64,000 bases of DNA, from NCBI RefSeq assembly GCF_002217395.1, contig NZ_MUHD01000006.1:62001-126000 (forward strand). The letters are read 5' to 3'. This DNA comes from Flavobacterium plurextorum. GTDB taxonomy: Bacteria > Bacteroidota > Bacteroidia > Flavobacteriales > Flavobacteriaceae. Below are positions 48,595 to 61,825 of this stretch, one piece after another. A model generated the notes under the pieces. It saw nothing but the letters and a program-made list of their open reading frames with translations. It did no database searches and had not been told where the DNA came from. Each line of letters starts with the position of its first letter. The first letter of the stretch is position 1. Made by a program: the position numbers and the translations under genes.

Positions 48595-50703
48595 ATGAAA
48601 AATACAGACTCAAATCATATACACAAATATGATGCAAAAGGCAAACAAATTTGCTGTACACAAGAAGAAAAAATAAATCATTTGGCAGACAAAAAAAACA
48701 AAGCCAAAACTAAAGAAGACAGTTGCTGTGCCGATGAAAAACCAGTAAAAGCGACACACAACAATAACGATGGTCACGACCACGATGCACACAGCCACGA
48801 TAAACATTCTGATGATGACGGTCACGACCACTCTAATACTGACCAAACGACGTTTCAAATGTTTTTACCATCTTTAATAAGCTTTACTTTATTACTAATT
48901 GCAATTGGTTTTGATAATTACTTTACTCAATCTTGGTTCACTGGCTGGGTAAGACTTGGATGGTATATTGTAGCTTACATTCCAGTAGGTTTTCCTGTAA
49001 TTAAAGAAGCTTTTGAAAGCATTCGTAAAGGCGATATTTTTTCAGAGTTTTTGTTAATGAGTATTGCAACCATTGGAGCCTTTATTATTGCAGAATATCC
49101 AGAAGGTGTGGCAGTAATGTTATTTTATGCAGTTGGTGAAGTATTTCAAACACTTGCAGTACAAAGGGCGAAAATGAACATTAAATTATTATTGGATCAA
49201 AGACCAGATACAGCTACGGTAATTGAAGGTGCAAACACTATTTCTAAAAAGGCATCCGAAATAACTATTGGAGAGATTATCCAACTGCGCCCTGGAGAAA
49301 AAGTAGCTCTTGATGGAAAATTACTTTCAGACACTGCTTCATTGAATACAGCTGCTTTAACAGGGGAAAGTAAACCCGACACGAAACAAAAAGGAGAAAC
49401 AATTCTTGCAGGAATGATTAATCTAAATACTGTTGTTCAAGTTGAAGTCACTACAGCCTACACAGATAGTAAATTATCCAAAATTCTTGAAATGGTTCAG
49501 GAAGCTACAGCTAAAAAGGCACCAACCGAATTATTTATTAGAAAATTTGCTAAAATATACACACCTATTGTAGTGTTTTTAGCAATTGCAATTTGTTTAC
49601 TTCCAATGCTTTTTGTAGATAATTATGTATTTAAAGACTGGTTGTACAGAGCATTAGTTTTCTTGGTAATTTCTTGTCCTTGTGCTTTGGTAATTTCAAT
49701 TCCATTAGGGTATTTTGGAGGAATTGGTGCAGCGAGTAAAAATGGAATATTGTTTAAGGGTTCTAGTTTTCTCGACATAATGGCAGCTATTCAAGTGGTA
49801 GTTATGGATAAAACAGGAACATTGACCAAAGGTGTTTTCAAAGTTCAAAAAGTGGTACCTGTGGATATTGCAGAAGGTGATTTAGTAAAGTATACATCAG
49901 CACTCGAAACCAAATCAACACATCCTGTCGGAACAGCTATTATAGAATATGCCCAAGGTTCTGAAAAAAATGTAAGCGTTACTGATGTAGAAGAAATTGC
50001 AGGACACGGATTAAAAGGAAAAGTCGATGGAAACGAAATCTTGGCAGGAAATGTAAAATTGATGAAGAAATTCAATATCAGTTATGATGCTGAAATTGAG
50101 AATACACCCTTTACAATAATCGTTATTGCTATCAATCAAAAATATTCCGGCTACTTTTTAATTGCTGACGAAATCAAGGAAGATGCAAAAGAAGCTATTG
50201 AAAGTTTGCATAAAATAAATGTAAAAACAGTAATGCTATCCGGAGATAAACAAGCTGTTGTTGATGCTGTTGCAAAAGAATTAAATATTGATCAGGCTTA
50301 CGGTGATTTGTTGCCTGAAAACAAAGTCGAAAAAGTTGAAGAATTAAAATCTCAAAACCTAAAAATTGCTTTTGTCGGCGATGGCGTAAATGATGCCCCA
50401 GTAGTAGCTTTAGCAGATGCAGGAATTGCAATGGGTGGTTTAGGTAGTGACGCCACTATTGAAACGGCAGATATTGTAATTCAAAATGACCAGCCATATA
50501 AAATATACACAGCTATAAACATTGGTAAAAAGACCAAACAAATTGTTTATCAAAATATTGGTTTAGCATTTGCCGTAAAAGCAGTCGTTTTAATTCTGGG
50601 AGCTGGTGGTTTAGCGACAATGTGGGAAGCTGTTTTTGCCGATGTCGGTGTGGCTATGCTAGCTATTTTGAATGCAATTAGAATACAACGAATGAAGTTT
50701 TAA
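48595..50703 (+). CDS. Heavy-metal P-type ATPase (Zn/Cd type)
   Basis: The 702-aa protein is a P1B-type ATPase with SCPCALV in a membrane helix (CPC at 361-363), the phosphorylation site DKTGT at 405, a TGES-type loop (LTGESKP), and GDGVNDAP near 595. The N-terminus has no classical GMTCxxC domain; it has CC pairs and a His/Asp-rich stretch of HDH repeats (about 57-82), common in Zn/Cd exporters of this phylum. It would pump Zn2+, Cd2+ or Pb2+ out of the cytosol and act in series with the RND pump. Confidence 0.9.
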   Translation: MKNTDSNHIHKYDAKGKQICCTQEEKINHLADKKNKAKTKEDSCCADEKPVKATHNNNDGHDHDAHSHDKHSDDDGHDHSNTDQTTFQMFLPSLISFTLLLIAIGFDNYFTQSWFTGWVRLGWYIVAYIPVGFPVIKEAFESIRKGDIFSEFLLMSIATIGAFIIAEYPEGVAVMLFYAVGEVFQTLAVQRAKMNIKLLLDQRPDTATVIEGANTISKKASEITIGEIIQLRPGEKVALDGKLLSDTASLNTAALTGESKPDTKQKGETILAGMINLNTVVQVEVTTAYTDSKLSKILEMVQEATAKKAPTELFIRKFAKIYTPIVVFLAIAICLLPMLFVDNYVFKDWLYRALVFLVISCPCALVISIPLGYFGGIGAASKNGILFKGSSFLDIMAAIQVVVMDKTGTLTKGVFKVQKVVPVDIAEGDLVKYTSALETKSTHPVGTAIIEYAQGSEKNVSVTDVEEIAGHGLKGKVDGNEILAGNVKLMKKFNISYDAEIENTPFTIIVIAINQKYSGYFLIADEIKEDAKEAIESLHKINVKTVMLSGDKQAVVDAVAKELNIDQAYGDLLPENKVEKVEELKSQNLKIAFVGDGVNDAPVVALADAGIAMGGLGSDATIETADIVIQNDQPYKIYTAINIGKKTKQIVYQNIGLAFAVKAVVLILGAGGLATMWEAVFADVGVAMLAILNAIRIQRMKF

Positions 50704-50716
50704 TTAATATAAAGTG

Positions 50717-50749
50717 AAAAGCCTGTTTATCTAAAATAAACAGGCTTTT
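50717..50749. terminator. Intrinsic terminator after the P-type ATPase gene
   Basis: Perfect 14-bp arms (AAAAGCCTGTTTAT and its complement) with a 5-nt loop end in a T run. It lies between the plus-strand ATPase gene and the convergent copper operon and can serve both strands. Confidence 0.85.
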
Positions 50750-50838: not shown

Positions 50839-51855
50839 TTAATTCACTATAAATTCAATATCGCTTAAGGTCTTCATAAAAGAAATAAGATCAATCTTTT
50901 CTTCTTCGGTTAACGGAATTCTTTCCCCGTTATTTTTAAAAATCGGATCAAGATTATCTGATTCTAAGACACCATTATCAAAATAATCCAAAACTGATCT
51001 TAAATTAGCAAACTGACCGAAGCTTCCATAAGGAGCAGTATATTCAATATTTCTCAAAGTAGGAACACGAAAACTCATAAAATCAGAAACAATTCCCGTA
51101 ACTCTGCCGCGACCTGCTTCATTTGTATTGGTATTTAAAGGAAAACCAATATTTCTAAAACTCTGATCAGTAAACAATTCTCCCGAATGACAGCTTGCAC
51201 ATTTCTGCTGAAAGGTTTTATAACCTTCCAATTCACTTTCTGTAAAAGCTGTTTCTTTTCGGTTTACTTTATCGTATTTGCTGTTTGCCGAAATTAAAGT
51301 GTATTCAAATTGGGCAATACTCTGGAAAATTCTTTCGGGCGTAATGTTTTCATCTCCAAAAGCTTTTCTGAATAAATCCTTGTAAACCGAATCGTCTTTG
51401 ATTTTGCCAATAACTTCCAAAATAGAAGAATCCATTTCTTCGTGCGTAATAATAGGAACCAAAGGCTGATTTTCCAATTGCAATTTACTGCCGTCCCAAT
51501 TGTAAAACTTCATAAAAGCCAAATTCTGAATCGACGGCGTATTTCGAAGTCCAATTCTGCCAGAAATTCCAACAGCTTGAGATTTTTGGTCTGTAAAAGC
51601 ATTGGCCTGAATATGACAGCTCGAACACGAAATAGTATTGTCTGCACTGAATTTCTTTTCAGAAAAAAGCTTTTCTCCCAATTCCACGCCATATTTTGTT
51701 GGTTTGTTTTGGCTCACAAAAGCATTTAGCTCCGGAAATCCAGACGGAATTTGCAGCTCGACTTCAGGATTATCAATAGAAATCATATCTGATTCATCAT
51801 TATTACAAGATATCAGCACTATTAAAATCGATAAGAAACCAATTATTTTTTTCAT
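50839..51855 (-). CDS. Di-haem cytochrome c peroxidase family protein, MbnH-like
   Basis: The 338-aa protein has a lipoprotein signal (VLISC) and two haem c motifs, CSSCH near residue 77 and CASCH near 215, in a CcpA/MauG fold (LGEKLFSEKKFSADNTISCSSCH, GLRNTPSIQNLAF, GSFGQFANLRSVLDYFDNG). The gene directly upstream encodes an MbnP-type protein. In known pairs the di-haem enzyme MbnH oxidises a Trp of MbnP to kynurenine and creates a copper site. That pairing is the basis for calling this MbnH-like rather than a plain peroxidase. Confidence 0.82.
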   Translation of the reverse strand: MKKIIGFLSILIVLISCNNDESDMISIDNPEVELQIPSGFPELNAFVSQNKPTKYGVELGEKLFSEKKFSADNTISCSSCHIQANAFTDQKSQAVGISGRIGLRNTPSIQNLAFMKFYNWDGSKLQLENQPLVPIITHEEMDSSILEVIGKIKDDSVYKDLFRKAFGDENITPERIFQSIAQFEYTLISANSKYDKVNRKETAFTESELEGYKTFQQKCASCHSGELFTDQSFRNIGFPLNTNTNEAGRGRVTGIVSDFMSFRVPTLRNIEYTAPYGSFGQFANLRSVLDYFDNGVLESDNLDPIFKNNGERIPLTEEEKIDLISFMKTLSDIEFIVN

Positions 51856-51872
51856 TCTAAATGAATTTAAAA

Positions 51873-51908
51873 CAGAACTGTCTGTCTTTTAAAATTCAGA
51901 CAGTTCTG
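51873..51908 (-). promoter_or_regulatory. Intercistronic hairpin between the MbnP- and MbnH-like genes
   Basis: Perfect 12-bp arms (CAGAACTGTCTG and its complement) with a 12-nt loop, followed on the minus strand by TTTT. It may act as a partial terminator or RNA stabiliser that makes the MbnP protein more abundant than its modifying enzyme. Confidence 0.6.
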
Positions 51909-51918
51909 CAATATGAAT

Positions 51919-52785
51919 TTAGTTTTCGACGCTTGTAACCGAAAACATTCCTGTAATATCACTTGATCCGTTTCCGCCCAAATTATCTACAAATTTTACC
52001 ATTTGAGCTGCAGTATGAACATTTGGCGTAGCATTGTCATTCATTCCTGTTCCAGTTGAAAGCGTAATTGTGTTTATTTTTCCGCTTAACAATTTATCGA
52101 AATCTGCTTTAATTTTAATTTTTGGCGCTTTGCTTCCCACAACTGCATTTGCAGTAAGATTTAAGGTTACATCTCTGTAAGCATTTACACCTTGTGTGTA
52201 GTTTGGAGAAGTTCCTTCAACCGTGCTTCCTGTATGGATAGACATTGCTTTATTATCGGTCGCATAAAAACCTTCAATCTTTGTAAAACGGTAACCGCTT
52301 CCCCATTCCCACATCATTTGCGTATCATTTGCTCCTGCTGCTGCATAAAAATTAGGAAATCGTACTTGATCTAATGTATTTTGCTCTGGTTTAATCCCTA
52401 AACCAAATTTAATTTGCTTGAAAGTTGCAGATGGAACGTTGCTTAAAACATAACTCAATGAAGCAGTTTTTGCCTGATCGATTACTGTTGCGCCTTTATC
52501 CAAATCGTTTACATTGTATGGAACTTCATCTCCGTTATCTTTCACAAGACGAATATTGCTGATGACATACTTCAATTCCGAAAAATGATGCACTTGTCCT
52601 GCTGCCGATGTATTTGCTGTAGCAGAAGTTGAAGCCGCATTTCCTAAAACAATTGTTGTACTCTTGAAAGTGTTATTGAATTCCAATGTTAAATTGTTTG
52701 CTGCTGGATTGTCATCATCGCTTGAACAAGATACTAATGCCAAAGAGGCAATCGATACTAAAAGGTATTTTTTTAAATTTTGCAT
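51919..52785 (-). CDS. MbnP family copper-binding lipoprotein
   Basis: The 288-aa protein has a lipoprotein signal (LALVSCSS) and the MbnP pattern: HHFSELKYVISNIRLVKDNG near the start and MMWEWGSGYRFTKIEG in the middle. In studied MbnP proteins a Trp in this region is converted to kynurenine by MbnH, giving tight Cu(I) binding in the periplasm; the WEW segment here is the candidate site. It precedes the MbnH-like gene in the operon. Confidence 0.85.
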   Translation of the reverse strand: MQNLKKYLLVSIASLALVSCSSDDDNPAANNLTLEFNNTFKSTTIVLGNAASTSATANTSAAGQVHHFSELKYVISNIRLVKDNGDEVPYNVNDLDKGATVIDQAKTASLSYVLSNVPSATFKQIKFGLGIKPEQNTLDQVRFPNFYAAAGANDTQMMWEWGSGYRFTKIEGFYATDNKAMSIHTGSTVEGTSPNYTQGVNAYRDVTLNLTANAVVGSKAPKIKIKADFDKLLSGKINTITLSTGTGMNDNATPNVHTAAQMVKFVDNLGGNGSSDITGMFSVTSVEN

Positions 52786-52809
52786 TTTTTTAAAATTTTG
52801 TATTTCTAT

Positions 52810-53199
52810 TTAAGATTTAAACCGAGGTACTACATCATAAATAGGCGGCGGTACAAAAATTTCCAGACAGGGTTCTAACAAGCCCAATTCTTTATAAATG
52901 GTTGTTTTACTAGATTTTATCAATTTTAAAATAGGAACTTTAAATTCAATATTCCAAATCTGGACCATATCGATTTTCTTGCCAATACTGGTCAATTCCA
53001 AATCGGTAGCATCTGATTTTTCAAGCTCTTTCTTCAAATGACATTTACCGTGACATTGGAGTTTCGGCTGGGCTTTGTTGACACAAAATTCCTGTTCAAT
53101 ACTTTGCTGATTGAGTTTAAAGTGCACAATAATCAATGCCTGCTGGAAAGAAACCAGCAGAAACAGCATTGTCATGGTGATACTAAAAACTTTTCTCAT
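52810..53199 (-). CDS. Small secreted Cys-containing protein (FKLNQ family)
   Basis: The 129-aa protein has a hydrophobic N-terminus and the pattern FKLNQQSIEQEFCVNK followed by CHGKCHLKKEL. The protein at 56424-56795 has the same arrangement, so both belong to one unnamed family. The C-x-G-x-C motif and its place between copper receptor and MbnP genes suggest copper binding or delivery. The gene starts 5 bp after the receptor stop. Confidence 0.65.
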   Translation of the reverse strand: MRKVFSITMTMLFLLVSFQQALIIVHFKLNQQSIEQEFCVNKAQPKLQCHGKCHLKKELEKSDATDLELTSIGKKIDMVQIWNIEFKVPILKLIKSSKTTIYKELGLLEPCLEIFVPPPIYDVVPRFKS

Positions 53200-53204
53200 T
53201 TTTA

Positions 53205-55184
53205 TTAGAAATTGAATTTTAAAGAAGTAAAAATATTACGTCCCATTCTCGGAATATTTCCCCAATCGGCATAAGTACTGTAATATTCGTTTAACAAATT
53301 TTCTGCCCCAACCTGAACCACGGTTTTTACCTGATTGATTTTGAATGAATAATTGGCCGAAAGATTCCAGATAACATAAGCTCCTGTTAAGTCTTCTCCA
53401 TATTCTGGACTATAATTAATCTGCTCAAAATCTCCATTGACAGAAGTCTGGATTCCGAAATTTTTATGCATAAAATGAAGTGAAGTCAAATAACTCAACG
53501 GACGAATAAAAGGCAGATTACCACCGTTATTGTCCATCCCGCGTGCGTAGGTTAAACTTCCGTTCCAATGCAAATGTTCCAAAATATCATAACTCGCATT
53601 CATAGACATATTCAAAAGCGTTGCATAATCTAAAGAAGTATATCCTTTTACCCCAACCGATTGATAATTCATCGGACTTCCCATACTTAAAATTCTTCCA
53701 ATGATATAATTCTCAATGTAGAAATAATTGATTTTTCCCTGAATACTTAATCTTTCGTTTTTAAAACCTGCGCTTGCATTTCCTTCATACGAAATTTCAT
53801 TTTTCAAATCAGGATTTCCAATGTAGTCATACCGGTCAAAACTATTGTAAATGTAATATCCGTAACCTTCAGAAACAGAAGGTGCTCTATGTCCGTAACC
53901 TGTTCCAACAGAAAAGTTAAAATGATCAATATCAAGATTGTAACCTGCGTGTAAACTTGGTAAAAATCTTGTTTTTTCCTGCGGTGCTCCGGGATGAAAA
54001 ATCCAGTTGAATTCAACATATTTAGAGTAATTGTAATTTACGCCCAAAGATCCACCCAAATTCACCTGACTTTTCTCTGAAAGATCCCACGAATTATTCA
54101 TCGAAAGTCCCACATAACGTGTTGTTACCCAAGGCCAGCTGTAAGCAAACATCGTTCTTTTGCTTCTATCCTGAGGGTACATTCTCATTTCGGCAATAGA
54201 CAAATTATCATAAGCATTCAATTGTATTTCAGATGAATAACTGTTCTTTTTCAAATTAGCTTTAGAAACCAAACCATACGTTGTACTCCAGCCCGGCATA
54301 TCCATATGAACCAGGTTTTCAGGGCGGGTTGTATCATCCATATAATGTTCGATGGCATTGAAATAGATTTTTGAGTCAATTACTTTTACCAATCCATCTT
54401 CAAATAGTTGTTTATAAGAAGCTGATGTAATTAAGGCACGGGAAAGCGATAAATCCATTGGTAGCGCTGGATATCCAACATCTTTTGCCATATCAAAAAT
54501 AGCATCTAATCGTACCGATGATAAATCAGTTGTTTTATAAGCAAAACCTAATGATGTATTAAACTTTTTGTATTGTGAATGTTTTACTTCATCATCATTT
54601 CCGTCATAATAATCATCTGCTTTTCGGTACGAAATACTTCCTTCTGCAACAAATTTTTTACCAGAATATGCTACATTTCCAAGATTAAAAAACTGTTTAT
54701 TATTAAACTCAAATCCGCTTTGGTACGCTCCGTTCCATTTCTTGGCAAGACCAAACGGAGTGCTTTTTCTTTTTAAATCGATACTTCCTGCAATTGTTGA
54801 ACCGTGAAGGCTTCCTTCCTGCCCGGATTTTATATCAATTGTCGAAAGGTTATTACTCTCCACATATGAAGTTATCGGATCCATTTTATCAGTACACGCG
54901 CCAAAAACATGCATTCCGTCAATCGTAACCGTTGAACGTTCTGTGCTCATGTTGTTTAATAATGGTTCCCAGGCATAAGCTCCGCGTTTTATAAAGCTTA
55001 TATTATCAGACGATGATAGAAATTCATCTACAGAAACTGCCATTTTCATTTCGGTTTCAATCTTCTTTTTTACTGCGTTTTTTACTTTTACTTCTTCAAG
55101 ATTTTTTATGCTATCATGATGTGCGTGCGTGTTTTGAGCCGTTACAGACATTCCCAGAAAAAGTAACATTAATATATATTTCAT
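53205..55184 (-). CDS. TonB-dependent copper receptor, OprC/NosA-like
   Basis: The 659-aa protein from the ATG at 55184 has a signal peptide (cleavage after VTAQ, residue 17), a plug domain with IDGMHVFGACTDKMDPITSY and a beta-barrel ending in FTSLKFNF. Cys97 and Met101 form a CxxxM motif and His280 and Met282 an HxM motif; in Pseudomonas OprC such a CxxxM-HxM set binds copper. It therefore probably imports copper. It follows a copper-type lipoprotein gene by 4 bp and leads into the MbnP/MbnH genes. Confidence 0.85.
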   Translation of the reverse strand: MKYILMLLFLGMSVTAQNTHAHHDSIKNLEEVKVKNAVKKKIETEMKMAVSVDEFLSSSDNISFIKRGAYAWEPLLNNMSTERSTVTIDGMHVFGACTDKMDPITSYVESNNLSTIDIKSGQEGSLHGSTIAGSIDLKRKSTPFGLAKKWNGAYQSGFEFNNKQFFNLGNVAYSGKKFVAEGSISYRKADDYYDGNDDEVKHSQYKKFNTSLGFAYKTTDLSSVRLDAIFDMAKDVGYPALPMDLSLSRALITSASYKQLFEDGLVKVIDSKIYFNAIEHYMDDTTRPENLVHMDMPGWSTTYGLVSKANLKKNSYSSEIQLNAYDNLSIAEMRMYPQDRSKRTMFAYSWPWVTTRYVGLSMNNSWDLSEKSQVNLGGSLGVNYNYSKYVEFNWIFHPGAPQEKTRFLPSLHAGYNLDIDHFNFSVGTGYGHRAPSVSEGYGYYIYNSFDRYDYIGNPDLKNEISYEGNASAGFKNERLSIQGKINYFYIENYIIGRILSMGSPMNYQSVGVKGYTSLDYATLLNMSMNASYDILEHLHWNGSLTYARGMDNNGGNLPFIRPLSYLTSLHFMHKNFGIQTSVNGDFEQINYSPEYGEDLTGAYVIWNLSANYSFKINQVKTVVQVGAENLLNEYYSTYADWGNIPRMGRNIFTSLKFNF

Positions 55185-55188
55185 GTTT

Positions 55189-56112
55189 TTAGAATAAGGT
55201 ATCAATATAAAGCTCACTTTTCACGCCTTCAACTCCTGGCGTAAAATCTGTTGGAACTACAGTTCCTTTTATGATGAGCCCATTTTGATTCATCATGATT
55301 AAATTTAAGGTCCAGTTTCCTGTCATGGTATAATTGACAACTCCGTGATACAAACCATCGTTTTGCTGTGTTAAATCCTGATTATTTGGCGAAGAATGGT
55401 TACCCATTGAAGGTTCAGGCATTCTTGGATCTAGTTTTAAAGTATATCCGCTTACTTCTGAATACGAAAACTGAGCAGGATTTGGAAAAGCTCCGGCAGG
55501 AGTTGTTGGTTTGTTGTATTTGTAGATACCCGCTGTTAATTTGTTTTCAGAAACGGTTGGTTTTTGAGGCGAAACCAATGCAATGACGTATTGTTCGTTG
55601 TCTTTTCCTGTAAAGGCTGTCATATTAAGGTTTTTATTGCTTTGTTTGGCAACCGAAATATCTTTATTAACCTCAATCTTCTGATTGTCTGCGGTAAAAC
55701 TCACATATAATTTCCAACTGTTTCCTTCAGCTGTTTCGCTTGTAAATACAGAATAACCCACAAAATATTTATTTGCATTATCATATTCCGGATTGTACTC
55801 ATGCGGACAAGAAGTGTGGCTTCCATCAGAATTACTCAGAATTGGCAAAAAAGTTACCGCTGTCGTATTTACACTTTGATTGGTTTGTGTATTGACGACT
55901 TTTAAATGAAGCTCATTATAACCTTTATAAAATCTTCCGTTTAAAGCTTCGACACTTATTTTATAGTTGCCGTTTGTTAACGAAACAGCTTCTTTAAACT
56001 CATAATATTCAGGAATTTCAGCATCAATTTCGGCTTGATAATCTGTTTTATCAATGGTACAGGAAGTAATCACACCTAATAGTGCAATTACTAAAATTTT
56101 AAAAGATTTCAT
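55189..56112 (-). CDS. Lipoprotein with YtkA/FixH-like domain
   Basis: The protein (307 aa from 56112) has a lipoprotein signal (GVITSC) and two similar beta-rich halves. Each resembles the YtkA/FixH-type fold: SLTNGNYKISVEALNGRFYKGYNELHLKV, and later YHGVVNYTMTGNWTLNLIMMNQNG. Segments with His, Met and Cys (SHTSCPHEYN, RMPEPSMGNH) suit copper binding. The ATG at 56112 is chosen because the longer TTG start lies upstream of the -7 box. It is the first gene of the copper operon. Confidence 0.72.
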   Translation of the reverse strand: MKSFKILVIALLGVITSCTIDKTDYQAEIDAEIPEYYEFKEAVSLTNGNYKISVEALNGRFYKGYNELHLKVVNTQTNQSVNTTAVTFLPILSNSDGSHTSCPHEYNPEYDNANKYFVGYSVFTSETAEGNSWKLYVSFTADNQKIEVNKDISVAKQSNKNLNMTAFTGKDNEQYVIALVSPQKPTVSENKLTAGIYKYNKPTTPAGAFPNPAQFSYSEVSGYTLKLDPRMPEPSMGNHSSPNNQDLTQQNDGLYHGVVNYTMTGNWTLNLIMMNQNGLIIKGTVVPTDFTPGVEGVKSELYIDTLF

Positions 56113-56148
56113 TAGTAATGAAGGTATAAAACTGTTTAAAATGCAGCA

Positions 56149-56156
56149 CAAAGCTA
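56149..56156 (-). promoter_or_regulatory. -7 box (TAGCTTTG) of the copper operon
   Basis: On the minus strand the octamer fits TAnnTTTG and ends 36 bp before the ATG at 56112, leaving a short leader. The operon would cover five genes down to 50839. Confidence 0.55.
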
Positions 56157-56423: not shown

Positions 56424-56795
56424 TTAGACCAGCGGGGGGTGAAATGTAAGATTAGAAGCCTTGATAGGTTTCTTTTCCAATAAAATAGAAGTATTCTCTT
56501 TTGACTCCATAACCGAAATCAAACTGAAATTAACTTCAGCAGTATTTTGAATATAGACAATCTCTAATTTATCTTTTAGACTGTCCTGCATTTTTCTTTC
56601 GTTATCAGAATATTTTTTGATACTTTTTTGAAGCTCGCATCGACCATTACATTTATTAAAAGCGACTTTACGTTGTACACAAATAGTTTTTGCTATTTCC
56701 TGCTGATTTAATTTAAATGAAGCATATACAAACAGGCTGCCTAAAGATGGCATTAAAATTAAAATGGAAAGTGCTATTATGATTAAGCTTTTCAA
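56424..56795 (-). CDS. Small secreted Cys-containing protein (FKLNQ family), second copy
   Basis: The 123-aa protein has a hydrophobic N-terminus, FKLNQQEIAKTICVQRK and CNGRCELQKSIKK, and ends in FHPPLV. It shares order and spacing of the Cys motifs with the protein at 52810-53199 and probably has the same job, likely metal binding at the cell envelope. It has its own -7 box and stands about 310 bp before the copper operon. Confidence 0.65.
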   Translation of the reverse strand: MKSLIIIALSILILMPSLGSLFVYASFKLNQQEIAKTICVQRKVAFNKCNGRCELQKSIKKYSDNERKMQDSLKDKLEIVYIQNTAEVNFSLISVMESKENTSILLEKKPIKASNLTFHPPLV

Positions 56796-56820: not shown

Positions 56821-56828
56821 CAAAAATA
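56821..56828 (-). promoter_or_regulatory. -7 box (TATTTTTG) of the second FKLNQ-family gene
   Basis: On the minus strand the octamer fits TAnnTTTG and ends 25 bp before the ATG at 56795. Confidence 0.5.
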
Positions 56829-57151: not shown

Positions 57152-58810
57152 TCACAATTCAAAAAACACCTTATCTTTGCACTCGCAATCAGAAAACGAT
57201 AGCAACATACTGGAGAAATGGCAGAGCGGTCGAATGCGGCAGTCTTGAAAACTGTTGACTGTAACAGGTCCGGGGGTTCGAATCCCTCTTTCTCCGCTGA
57301 GAGGGTCTTCATCAAGAAGACCCTCTTTTTTTTCATAAATTAGCAATCCTTTTTCTTTCATTTTCAAATGGTTATGCGACACCAAACCGAGCATTGTGGG
57401 TGTTCGATAAATCCCATTTTCATAGTACAGATTGCTGTCGAACACCATATTTACAAATTCTCTCTTTTGGAGGGTGTCGGAAGTAGTATATACGTGTCGC
57501 ATATCCGTTAAAAGGTTAAGGTTGTCTTCCAAGATACCGAAAGCCTTGCTTTTGTCGTTGCTTAACCTTTCAATAGCTCCTTTGAGGTTCAGTATCTCAT
57601 TGTTGTATATCGAATACCAACGGTCATAGGTGTCCTTGTTTATTTCGTTCTTTATCCATTTTTCCTCAACCGAAAACAGCTTTTCCTCGACTTCCTGTAA
57701 TTGGTTTCTCTTTTCGATGACCTTTTTACGGTTGTTTTCCATTTCCAAATCGAGAGAGCTTTTCGTTACTGTCCTAATCTTCCTTACCCTTGTACTCGGC
57801 AGGCTCATCAGTTCACAGGCTTCTAAAAATTGGTTATGGGCTTTTATCGCACTTATATTGTTGTGCTTAGAGTACCTGCACTTGTAGTAATAGAAATATT
57901 TACCCGATTTGCCCCTTGACGGTGCGCCAGACAGCGGATTTCCGCAATGGCACTTCAATACCCCACGCAAAGGGATTTCGTCATCAATAACCGTTCTTGT
58001 CTTTTCGGGGCGTTTCATTTTCTCCTGTACCATCATCCAAGTGGTCTTGTCAACGATAGGTTCGTGAATACCGTCAAACAGACCGCCCGCATAGTCCTTG
58101 TAGGCTTCCACTTTCAGCAAACCTGCATAGGTCGGATTTTTAAGTACACGCTCGATAGCCATATTGCCCTTTGTCGGAAAGCCCAACCTTTGGGCTTGCT
58201 CCTTTATCAGATAGAGCGGTGTATCCCGCAGATATGAATCGTAAATAAAGCGGACTATCTTGGCTTCTGTTTCCTCGATGACCAACCGCCGTTCCTTGCG
58301 TTCTCCCTCTTTCCTGTACCCGAACGGTGCGTTCTTGTAAACATATCTTCCTTCTTTGGCTTTTGCGGTATAGATACCGCCCTTGACCTTGATACTGCGG
58401 TTGATATTGTCCTCTTCGGCAAGCAAAAGTTGTAACCCTGCACGGAAGAAACTGCCAGGTGTGTCATAATCAAAGGTAATGCCCTCTGTCACGCTTACGA
58501 CCTGTATGCTGTACTTCTGTTGCAGGAGCTTGACCATGCTCATCGCTTCCCCCGCATCACGGCTGAAACGGTCGAGTTGGTCAACCAATAGGTAATCGAC
58601 CGTCCTGTGGTGTGTGGTTATGAACTCCCTTAGTTTGATAAAATCGGGGCGGTCGAATGTCCGTGCGCTCTTGCCCCTGTCGATAAAGGTATCGACCAGT
58701 TCGACATCGTTGAACTTCAGCCATTGGTCGGTATAAAGCTCCTGTCTTTCTATTGAACCGTTACTTTGTCCGAGTTGACTGAAACGTAGGTATCTTATCG
58801 CTCTTTTCAT
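57152..58810 (-). CDS. Large serine recombinase (site-specific integrase)
   Basis: The 552-aa reading has an N-terminal resolvase domain with the catalytic Ser11 (RYLRFSQ), a recombinase domain (about 165-290, [10 protein letters not shown] and [21 protein letters not shown]), a zinc ribbon ([11 protein letters not shown], later YYYKC) and a coiled coil (about 355-425). Large serine recombinases integrate and excise mobile elements at short att sites. The last 60 residues or so come from the opposite strand of the tRNA terminator and tRNA gene ([10 protein letters not shown] is antisense tRNA). The native C-terminus therefore probably ended near IYEKK, and the insertion point lies about 57330. 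Confidence 0.85.
57172..57179 (+). promoter_or_regulatory. -7 box (TATCTTTG) of tRNA-Ser
   Basis: The octamer fits TAnnTTTG exactly and ends 32 bp before the tRNA 5' end. Confidence 0.65.
57212..57296 (+). tRNA. tRNA-Ser (anticodon UGA)
   Basis: The 85-nt sequence folds as a class II tRNA. The acceptor stem is GGAGAAA/TTTCTCC with G as discriminator. The anticodon stem GCAGT/ACTGT has loop CTTGAAA, giving anticodon UGA, and there is a long variable arm. The T loop is GGGGGTTCGAATCCC. CCA is not encoded. It has its own -7 box and terminator. The complementary strand is read through by the serine recombinase frame. Confidence 0.95.
57300..57326 (+). terminator. Intrinsic terminator of tRNA-Ser
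   Basis: Perfect 11-bp arms (AGAGGGTCTTC and its complement) with a 5-nt loop and a run of at least eight T on the plus strand, starting a few bases after the tRNA. Confidence 0.88.
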
Positions 58811-60535: not shown

Positions 60536-61825
60536 ATGATTGCAAAAATCGGAAAGGGAAGCAATATGTACGGAGCGATTTTGTACAATCAGCAGAAAGT
60601 GGAAACGGAAAACGGAGCGGTTCTGTTGCTGAACAAGATACCCGACACGATGAACGGCAAATATTCCGTCCAATATTTCAACAAGTGTTTTGAGCCGTAT
60701 TTGTCCGCAAATATCCGAACGGAAAAGACGGTACGGCATATTTCATTGAACCCCGATCCGAAAGACAAGGTAAGTGATGAACAGTTTACCGAAATGGCAC
60801 AGGAATATATGGAGCGTATGGGCTACGGCAATCAGCCGTATATCGTATTCAAACATACGGACATTGACCGAACGCATATACACATTGTTTCGACCTGCGT
60901 GGGCATTGACGGCAGGAAAATCCCCGATGATTACGACCACCCACGTTCAATGGCTATCTGTCGTGATTTGGAAACGAAATACAACCTGCACAAAGCCACC
61001 GAGCAAGAGCAGAAACAAGCCGATAAGATTTTCAAAAAGGTAGAACAACAGAAAGACGATATTAAAAGCCAAATCGCTTCGGTGGTTCGGCATCTGCCGA
61101 AATATTACCAATACACAAGTCTCGGAGCATACAACGCTTTGCTTTCGTTCTTTAATATCACGGCAGAGGAAATAAAGGGCGAGCGGAACGGAGAGCCTGT
61201 ACACGGATTGATATATTTCGCTTTGGACGACAAGGGAGAAAAGGCAAGCAATCCGTTTAAAGCGTCTTTGTTTGGCAAGCACGCAGGAGTAAACGGATTA
61301 CAACGGCACTTTGAACAGTCGAAAGAGAAAATCAAAACCAATCCTGCGAGGTCTGTTCTCAAAAATACGGTGGAGCTGGCCATTCATACCACAGACAACG
61401 AAAAGGAATTTAAAAAGCAACTTGCCGAACAGAATATTCAGACAGTTGTCCGTAGGAACGACAACGGACGGATTTACGGTATCACGTTTATTGACAATGG
61501 TAGCCGTACTGTTTGGAATGGCTCGCAGTTAGACAGAAACCTGTCTGCCAATCTGTTTAACGATTGGTGGAACAATGGTAACAAACCCGAATTGAAAATA
61601 CAGGACAGTCCTGTTTCCAATACGAACACAATAAACCACCAACCGACAAAAGACCTTTTCGAATTTATCACACAGGAACATTCGCAGAGTTCTGATTTGG
61701 GATTGTTCAGTCTGTTGCCCCAAGTACAGAGCGAGGACTACGAGGAAGAACAGTTTGCCAAACGAATGAAGAAAACAAGACAAAAAAATAATAGAGATTA
61801 TCCTTATTTTCAAAACAAGTTTTAG
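60536..61825 (+). CDS. Relaxase/mobilisation nuclease (MobB-like), second module
   Basis: The 429-aa protein shows the relaxase pattern: MIAKIGKGSNMYGAILYNQQKV at the start with a candidate nucleophile Tyr, RHISLNPDPKD, and the metal-binding motif HTDIDRTHIHI near 110-120. It is related to the relaxase at 4818 but clearly different in sequence and more GC-rich. No coupling protein follows, so this element is probably mobilisable with help from another conjugative element. Confidence 0.87.
   Translation: MIAKIGKGSNMYGAILYNQQKVETENGAVLLLNKIPDTMNGKYSVQYFNKCFEPYLSANIRTEKTVRHISLNPDPKDKVSDEQFTEMAQEYMERMGYGNQPYIVFKHTDIDRTHIHIVSTCVGIDGRKIPDDYDHPRSMAICRDLETKYNLHKATEQEQKQADKIFKKVEQQKDDIKSQIASVVRHLPKYYQYTSLGAYNALLSFFNITAEEIKGERNGEPVHGLIYFALDDKGEKASNPFKASLFGKHAGVNGLQRHFEQSKEKIKTNPARSVLKNTVELAIHTTDNEKEFKKQLAEQNIQTVVRRNDNGRIYGITFIDNGSRTVWNGSQLDRNLSANLFNDWWNNGNKPELKIQDSPVSNTNTINHQPTKDLFEFITQEHSQSSDLGLFSLLPQVQSEDYEEEQFAKRMKKTRQKNNRDYPYFQNKF

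Follow-up and report, generated by a model that had tools for sequence, protein, structure and literature searches.

What do two small cysteine-containing peptides do in a gene cluster of Flavobacterium plurextorum whose other products appear to capture copper? The cluster lies on the minus strand of the window, by which we mean the whole 64,000-nucleotide stretch of DNA that was analysed (contig NZ_MUHD01000006.1, positions 62,001 to 126,000). In reading order it encodes Cys peptide A, a YtkA-like lipoprotein, an OprC-like receptor, Cys peptide B, an MbnP-family protein, and an MbnH-like di-haem protein. We consider it reasonably likely that this is a copper-acquisition operon governed from within by its two peptides, which would act as nascent-chain copper sensors. 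A sequence-only reading of the same DNA had named five of the genes, all of which are present where it placed them. Missing from its list was peptide A, which heads the operon, as was the kinship of peptides A and B, which are members of one family. The features of the locus are as follows.

56821 to 56828, minus strand: Bacteroidota-type -7 promoter box TATTTTTG, 25 nucleotides (nt) before the start of peptide A
56424 to 56795, minus strand: Cys peptide A, 123 amino acids, TTG start; N-terminal hydrophobic segment, CNGRC, C-terminal FHPP followed by LV and the stop codon
55189 to 56112, minus strand: YtkA-like lipoprotein; PF13115 at 26.4 bits (cut-off 25.9)
53205 to 55184, minus strand: OprC-like TonB-dependent receptor; CxxxM at 97–101 and HxM at 280–282
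52810 to 53199, minus strand: Cys peptide B, 129 amino acids; CHGKC, C-terminal VPPP followed by 10 further residues
51919 to 52785, minus strand: MbnP-family lipoprotein; PF20243, WEW at 159–161 and His184
50839 to 51855, minus strand: MbnH-like di-haem protein; PF03150, two CxxCH, no Tyr at the axial-ligand position
50717 to 50749, minus strand: terminator-like hairpin of 15 pairs between the di-haem gene and a convergent ATPase gene, from a consensus scan only

The peptides belong to a widespread family. Homologues of peptide B occur in 90 of the 149 genomes of the host family, and a profile detects Cys peptides in 152 of 395 genomes of the phylum. An iterated profile over 121 sources yielded 120 proteins. 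The protein at locus L198 (L numbers are our locus labels) is cut by a contig end and was dropped, leaving 119 members; L204, which has no CxGxC, was kept. The CxGxC motif is found in 118 of the 119 complete members, and every member carries two adjacent prolines (PP) near its C-terminus, within the last 12 residues in 118 cases. Such an ending is rare among other genes of the same loci: 6 of 348 have it when matched for size, and 9 of 1249 when all sizes are taken. In 85 members the prolines are followed by two or three residues. The distance from CxGxC to PP is nearly constant (67.4 residues, standard deviation 2.2, range 63–73, 118 members), and the segment before the cysteines varies with a standard deviation of 10. 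The only invariant positions in the alignment are C39, C49, C53, P118, and P119 (peptide B numbering), and mean column identity is 19%. Most members are shorter than 150 amino acids (114/119), and 112 of 118 have an N-terminal hydrophobic segment, as judged from hydropathy only. Peptides from the named loci described below have the same ending: PP is within the last 12 residues in 118 of 122, lies slightly further in for three, and is affected by truncation of the peptide in one.

Codon comparisons within the Flavobacterium clade point to the same two motifs. Across 22 peptide A and 17 peptide B sequences, the CxGxC and xxPP codons show synonymous differences only. For peptide A, the pairwise differences (synonymous/replacing) are 421/0 in CxGxC, 319/0 in xxPP, and 2879/3169 in the middle segment; for peptide B, they are 260/0, 169/0, and 1884/2978, with the reservation that the pairs are not independent. 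The predicted structure of peptide B has a confident N-terminal helix (residues 2–29) and a poorly ordered remainder (predicted template modelling score 0.30). Membership of a named family was considered and set aside: hits in Pfam and NCBIfam (TGF_beta, DUF6769, NadA, and others) are weak, involve at most three of the 119 members each, and look like chance.

The genomic position of the family is equally regular. Gene neighbours were taken from our own open reading frame calls, which use the earliest possible start codon; starts and gaps may therefore be off. The gene downstream of the peptide is co-directional in 118 of 118 cases, and the upstream gene in 69 of 116. According to our own profiles, the next gene encodes an OprC-type receptor (38), a lipoprotein (25), MbnP (22), another Cys peptide (1), or some other protein (32). 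Seven of these 32 were examined with Pfam, giving three TonB receptors, two Phenol_MetA_deg proteins (above the cut-off of that model), one cytochrome bd subunit I, and one protein with no match above a cut-off. Where the other gene encodes 700–800 amino acids, nine of the 11 genes that come after it begin with a similar WxWKWH-type stretch, and PepSY_TM was found in the three following genes tested, namely two of the WxWKWH type and that of L135. Elsewhere in the phylum, Cys peptides also head pairs of a TonB receptor and a PepSY_TM protein, with both genes confirmed at L151 and L135. The median gap between a peptide and its next gene is 84.5 nt, against 49 for control pairs.

The association is strongest for the receptors. 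Receptor and peptide hits were obtained by separate searches of the same 149 genomes, and a peptide was scored as upstream if it lay within 3.5 kb on the same strand. Each receptor was counted once. The rows excluded were 16 later fragments of receptors already counted, two low-scoring receptor rows (36 and 20 bits, with no peptide nearby by coordinates), and one row each for a truncated peptide and a truncated MbnP. A Cys peptide is upstream of 36 of 36 receptors scoring above 390 bits, of 27 of 27 scoring between 60 and 390 bits, and of 0 of 17 scoring below 60 bits. The sequence-only reading had counted a Cys peptide as part of the capture line. The co-directional next gene, the fixed spacing between CxGxC and PP, and the synonymous-only motif codons make a regulator likelier.

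Other arrangements around the peptides were also seen. At L136, L154, and L189, two Cys peptides flank a lipoprotein-like protein of ∼145 amino acids, upstream of MbnP and MbnH. At L099, L131, L142, and other loci, a Cys peptide heads the gene for a Met-rich protein of 340 amino acids with RPDGHAPIxVMGDH near its start; Phenol_MetA_deg was found in the two examples tested, and the protein is perhaps an outer-membrane copper protein.

Transcription signals place the peptides at the head of the message. The sequence TAnnTTTG, which we take to be the consensus of the Bacteroidota-type -7 promoter box, lies within 200 nt upstream of the peptide in 77 of 119 cases (18.6 in shuffles), but in only four of 113 gaps downstream of a peptide. 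Because the box is common before the peptides and rare after them, expression of the governed genes appears to require transcripts that start at the peptide. Of 20 loci compared ahead of peptide A, the window among them, 19 have the box and all 20 have the TTG start of the peptide; two further loci could not be placed. In 32 of the 77 promoters an [AG]TCA[CT] element occurs 18–32 nt above the box, compared with 1 of 77 in a control slice. It is a candidate regulator site, and transcription may therefore be regulated too. In 29 of the 77 promoters (e.g., L190, L194, L157, and L120), the box begins 12–13 nt before the start codon (16 ATG, 12 GTG, and 1 TTG), and these messages look nearly leaderless.

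The gap of 311 nt between peptide A and the next ATG was inspected for other signals; here the lipoprotein start was set at ATG 56112, and an upstream TTG was passed over. A separate promoter between peptide A and the lipoprotein was rejected, since the candidate TAGCTTTG in the window is lost in the relatives compared. A conserved RNA in this gap was likewise rejected because the gap sequence diverges within the genus. The consensus scan found no terminator-like sites in the gap. Rho is encoded in the genome. Peptide B begins 5 nt past the receptor stop codon and ends 24 nt ahead of mbnP.

Conservation of the operon was assessed in 80 named loci, the best 80 of 558. These were picked through the patterns ACTDKMD or [HR]MDMPGW, so the presence of CxxxM among them is partly selected, and some share genomes with the other locus set of this analysis. 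The scan records gene order rather than adjacency. The order lipoprotein, receptor, MbnP, MbnH on one strand is present in all 80 of these nearest loci, from genera that include Flavobacterium, Sphingobacterium, Chryseobacterium, Winogradskyella, Maribacter, and Myroides. Peptide A precedes the lipoprotein in 76 loci, and the other four end at a contig edge there. Peptide B lies between the receptor and MbnP in 34, one copy being truncated. This copy, at L284 (7988–8200) in Flavobacterium fluviatile, was apparently cut short by a frame change. Six loci of the same genus, some of them among the named loci, have the full six-gene form with short gaps. Among the 80 loci, the best match to the window receptor is the one in F. 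quisquiliarum EA-12, with 97% identity. The genome itself holds two further Cys-peptide operons, L103 and L119 (C23 and C12), one with a lipoprotein and a 43% identical OprC-like receptor and one with MbnP and MbnH.

The receptor provides the clearest link to copper. Counting from ATG 55184, the residue numbers given for its two motifs by the sequence-only reading are right. In a phmmer comparison with solved structures, CTDKM aligns with CPNRM (143–147) of OprC and HYM with HIM (323–325), as found in 6fok. The copper ligands of OprC are in the Cys143-Met147 and His323-Met325 motifs (PMC8610252). A single-sequence search of the solved structures returned OprC alone at E ≤0.001 (best 1.6e-11), and a 20-sequence profile matched OprC at 2.4e-31 across most of its chain; the six solved sequences at E ≤1e-10 with this profile are all OprC. 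The four copper ligands are invariant in 20 of 20 aligned receptors. The description of the receptor as OprC-like is thus borne out. The window receptor resembles OprC and NosA in having the CxxxM-HxM site in register but differs from them in its partner genes and in its score for the curated OprC model TIGR01778 (TonB-copper), which at 81.5 bits is far below the cut-off of 472. It is therefore best regarded as OprC-like in its site rather than as a curated member. An OprC-like receptor with the same motif was reported earlier in another member of the Bacteroidota, Bizionia argentinensis (PMC11213822).

The two genes at the end of the operon encode a recognizable pair. The MbnP protein matches PF20243 at 120.4 bits (cut-off 27) but does not reach the cut-off of TIGR04052 for WxW MbnP proteins (58.7 against 140). 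Its WEW and a His align with the WNW region of 7l6g, deposited as ‘Metallo-mystery pair system four-Cys motif protein’, although this match is weak (E 0.0032). In the 30 aligned MbnP proteins Trp159 and His184 never vary and Trp161 hardly does, and WxW is present in all 80 MbnPs of the named loci. The adjoining di-haem protein matches CCP_MauG (PF03150) at 166 bits and has two CxxCH motifs. Its best profile and fold match is 6e1c, titled ‘MauG-like protein associated with microbial copper homeostasis’, and it too stays under its dedicated cut-off (TIGR04039 for MbnH, 200 against 363). On these grounds we agree with the proposals that the operon encodes an MbnP-type protein with a WEW site and, next to it, a di-haem enzyme.

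The di-haem protein is, however, a variant. Alignment A4 is gapless between LRN and the next VLD stretch. In this interval, PYMHDG and a Tyr are shared by the twelve sequences that fall outside the OprC-linked clade. The profile alignment matches this Tyr position with a Tyr of 6e1c and with a Met in two cytochrome c peroxidases, 3o5c and 2c1u, where the Met presumably is the axial ligand of the second haem. Within the OprC-linked clade, the eight sequences instead have PYGSFG and Phe (six) or Leu (two) at this position, with a Tyr one place earlier; the window protein has Phe. Among the 80 named relatives, 78 were readable at this residue pair, giving YF in 53, YL in 22, YM in two, and VL in one. 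The partner protein differs as well: in alignment A3, the eight OprC-linked MbnPs have neither the IHxxD histidine nor the HVHN tail that most others possess. With no Tyr at the axial position, Trp oxidation to kynurenine cannot be transferred from MbnH without proof. Since the Trp and one His are conserved, such chemistry, at Trp159 or Trp161, may nevertheless take place.

These results bear on the claim that the operon is a complete copper capture line without a methanobactin. The receptor, the MbnP protein with WxW, and the di-haem protein are present as claimed, but Trp oxidation is doubtful because the Tyr and the IHxxD and HVHN histidines are gone. The lipoprotein does match the YtkA family, although marginally. 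PF05114 (MbnB) has no match in the draft genome (65 contigs, 99.9% complete), in keeping with the absence of a methanobactin. The OprC site, MbnP, and the di-haem partner point to a copper operon, and copper capture by it is supported at the level of sequence. MbnP-MbnH pairs have long been known far beyond methanobactin makers (PMC3621798). The window pair shares with MbnP/MbnH, CorA/CorB, and MopE the combination of a WxW protein and a di-haem partner (PMC3621798, PMC3912023). It differs from MbnP/MbnH in falling under the TIGR04052 and TIGR04039 cut-offs, in having no axial Tyr, and in the lost MbnP histidines. About half of the MbnP hits in the family genomes fall into a lower-scoring group, in which a Cys peptide is upstream of one in 44. 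In many operons with a Cys peptide, MbnP, and MbnH (L101, L104, L112, and others), a gene for 315–350 amino acids follows or slightly overlaps mbnH; no Pfam match was found in the three examples tested.

A precedent for peptide control of copper genes exists in Bordetella pertussis, where CruR (DUF2946) heads the operon cruR-bfrG(crtA)-bp2921 (PMC9426467). CruR is an upstream open reading frame product with a CXXC...RAPP pattern whose translational arrest keeps the operon on without copper; copper relieves the arrest, leading to Rho-dependent termination (PMC9426467). Arrest by CruR has also been reported in vitro (PMC12992588). The Cys peptides and CruR have in common that they are small exported proteins with a Cys motif and a C-terminal Pro-Pro at fixed spacing. 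As with CruR, the peptides are placed before copper-type TonB receptors, PepSY_TM proteins, or OprC-type or MbnPH-like genes, and the pairs of TonB receptor and PepSY_TM genes behind some of them reproduce the layout of cruR-bfrG-bp2921 (PMC9426467). Unlike CruR, the family has CxGxC rather than CXXC, has no RAPP, and separates its cysteines from PP by ∼67 residues rather than 47 (reckoned from PMC9426467). Peptide A is the first gene of its operon, whereas peptide B is internal. A match to DUF2946 (PF11162) was found in none of the 149 genomes, and this family is not among the 25 listed of the 39 Pfam families matching the 119 members.

CutF of Rhodobacter capsulatus has a related design of opposite sign, raising its target with copper through a stem-loop (PMC9973294). 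For the RNA fold around the stop codon of the Cys peptides, five windows were compared with those of 118 control genes. Folding is slightly stronger in the 70 nt ahead of the stop (mean z −0.61 versus −0.31 for controls). Past the stop no extra fold is seen, so that a CutF-like stem-loop is not supported; in this the family is unlike CutF. A survey of CutF-like proteins selected those with fewer than 150 amino acids, PP in the last 15 residues, an N-terminal export-type segment, and a co-directional gene within 1000 nt; it comprised 5,334 proteins, 19% of them from Bacteroidota (list D; PMC9973294). Window peptides A and B have all of these features, the export segment being judged by hydropathy only, so the Cys-peptide family is probably inside that survey. 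The available parts of the survey do not describe the family, its spacing, or OprC-MbnPH operons in Bacteroidota. No description of such a family was among the results listed from the open-access literature; subscription papers, including structural ones on MbnP and MbnH, were outside our scope. As far as profiles show, the family would share the design of CruR and CutF, but not their sequence.

The likeliest explanation for these patterns is that each Cys peptide works as a copper-sensitive arrest peptide. Each would be translated first, with its N-terminal helix entering the membrane or the Sec channel, and translation would slow or stop at the C-terminal xPP. If the ∼67-residue spacing is compared with the chain lengths that span the ribosome and the channel, then the cysteines would be near the periplasmic mouth of Sec at arrest, and the copper pool that is sensed may be periplasmic. 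When copper is scarce, the paused ribosome would permit expression of the following genes. When copper occupies the three cysteines, which could bind it, the pause would be lifted and the following genes turned off. We infer this sign from the neighbours, which look like uptake genes, and from the precedent of CruR. Peptide A would govern the lipoprotein and the receptor, and peptide B would govern MbnP and MbnH. The receptor would import ionic copper, and MbnP would hold it or pass it on.

Several observations weigh against nascent-chain sensing. One member, L204, is without CxGxC. RAPP or RGPP is found in none of the 119 members, and Arg never occupies the position that corresponds to the RAPP Arg; in CruR, a change at Arg139-Ala140 abolished expression (PMC9426467). 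In the four windows past the stop codon the RNA folds no better than in controls. A Cys peptide is upstream of only 24 of the 35 best MbnP hits and one of the 44 others; peptide B was not found in 46 of the 80 named loci and is truncated in L284. Furthermore, the 24-nt gap between peptide B and mbnP is unlike the long gaps reported after cruR. The peptides might instead be mature proteins, serving as membrane-anchored copper chaperones or buffers with a structural Pro-Pro end. The conserved three-Cys motif, the frequent hydrophobic segment, and the adjoining copper-type genes agree with such a role. The middle and the tail drift, yet the spacing and the final PP are fixed; little ordered structure is modelled past the first helix; a co-directional gene always lies directly downstream; and one operon holds two copies. 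We therefore regard the chaperone or buffer role as unlikely.

A different possibility is that the copper operon is under an ordinary promoter regulator and that the peptides have no regulatory role. The promoter box ahead of the peptides, the [AG]TCA[CT] element above it, and the lack of a special RNA fold after the stop would all suit this explanation. It leaves the synonymous-only differences in CxGxC and xxPP unaccounted for, as well as the retention of the peptides across the phylum, and we judge it quite improbable. The operon could also be an iron or peroxide system whose receptor takes up haem or iron. The haem/transferrin model TIGR01786 does score higher on the receptor (100.7 bits) than TIGR01778, with both far below their cut-offs, and the available part of a paper on a Flavobacterium haem receptor has no mention of copper (PMC9331221). 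Given solved matches that are all OprC, invariant copper ligands, and an MbnP-family neighbour, a haem or iron receptor is very improbable. Regulation by the two proposed arrest peptides is accordingly the explanation that we favour for this locus.

A broader proposal is offered more tentatively, as one that is somewhat less likely than not. The Bacteroidota would have their own phylum-wide copper-sensing arrest peptides, unrelated in sequence to DUF2946 and without RAPP, which would read periplasmic copper via Sec through the ∼67-residue spacing. In Flavobacterium, two such peptides in series would gauge receptor uptake and the MbnP-MbnH pair separately.

The surroundings of the operon have features of their own. 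Tail to tail with it lies the gene (48595–50703, plus strand) for a heavy-metal P-type ATPase of the Zn/Cd type, whose N-terminus is His-rich. On the other side, a serine recombinase reading frame (57152–58810, minus strand) extends across a tRNA-Ser gene (57212–57297, plus strand), and a MobA/VirD2-type relaxase gene (60536–61825, plus strand) is nearby. A mobile element in or beside the tRNA gene seems to adjoin the copper operon.

Little is known of how Bacteroidota take up copper and gauge its level. RAPP/RGPP upstream peptides are reported to be missing before copper-factor genes in this phylum, and a TonB-related class of them is said to occur in Gram-negatives generally (PMC12992588). 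A family with other XPP ends would fill the Bacteroidota gap in that survey, and its natural C-terminal series (HPP, PPP, KPP, RPP, QPP, and EPP) could be used in studies of arrest. Likewise, the MbnH variant of the OprC-linked clade offers a test of whether Trp oxidation needs the axial Tyr. If the proposed mechanism is true, then a receptor with an OprC site would be a likely copper importer, and many small genes now called ‘hypothetical’ would be copper sensors that mark copper operons throughout the phylum.

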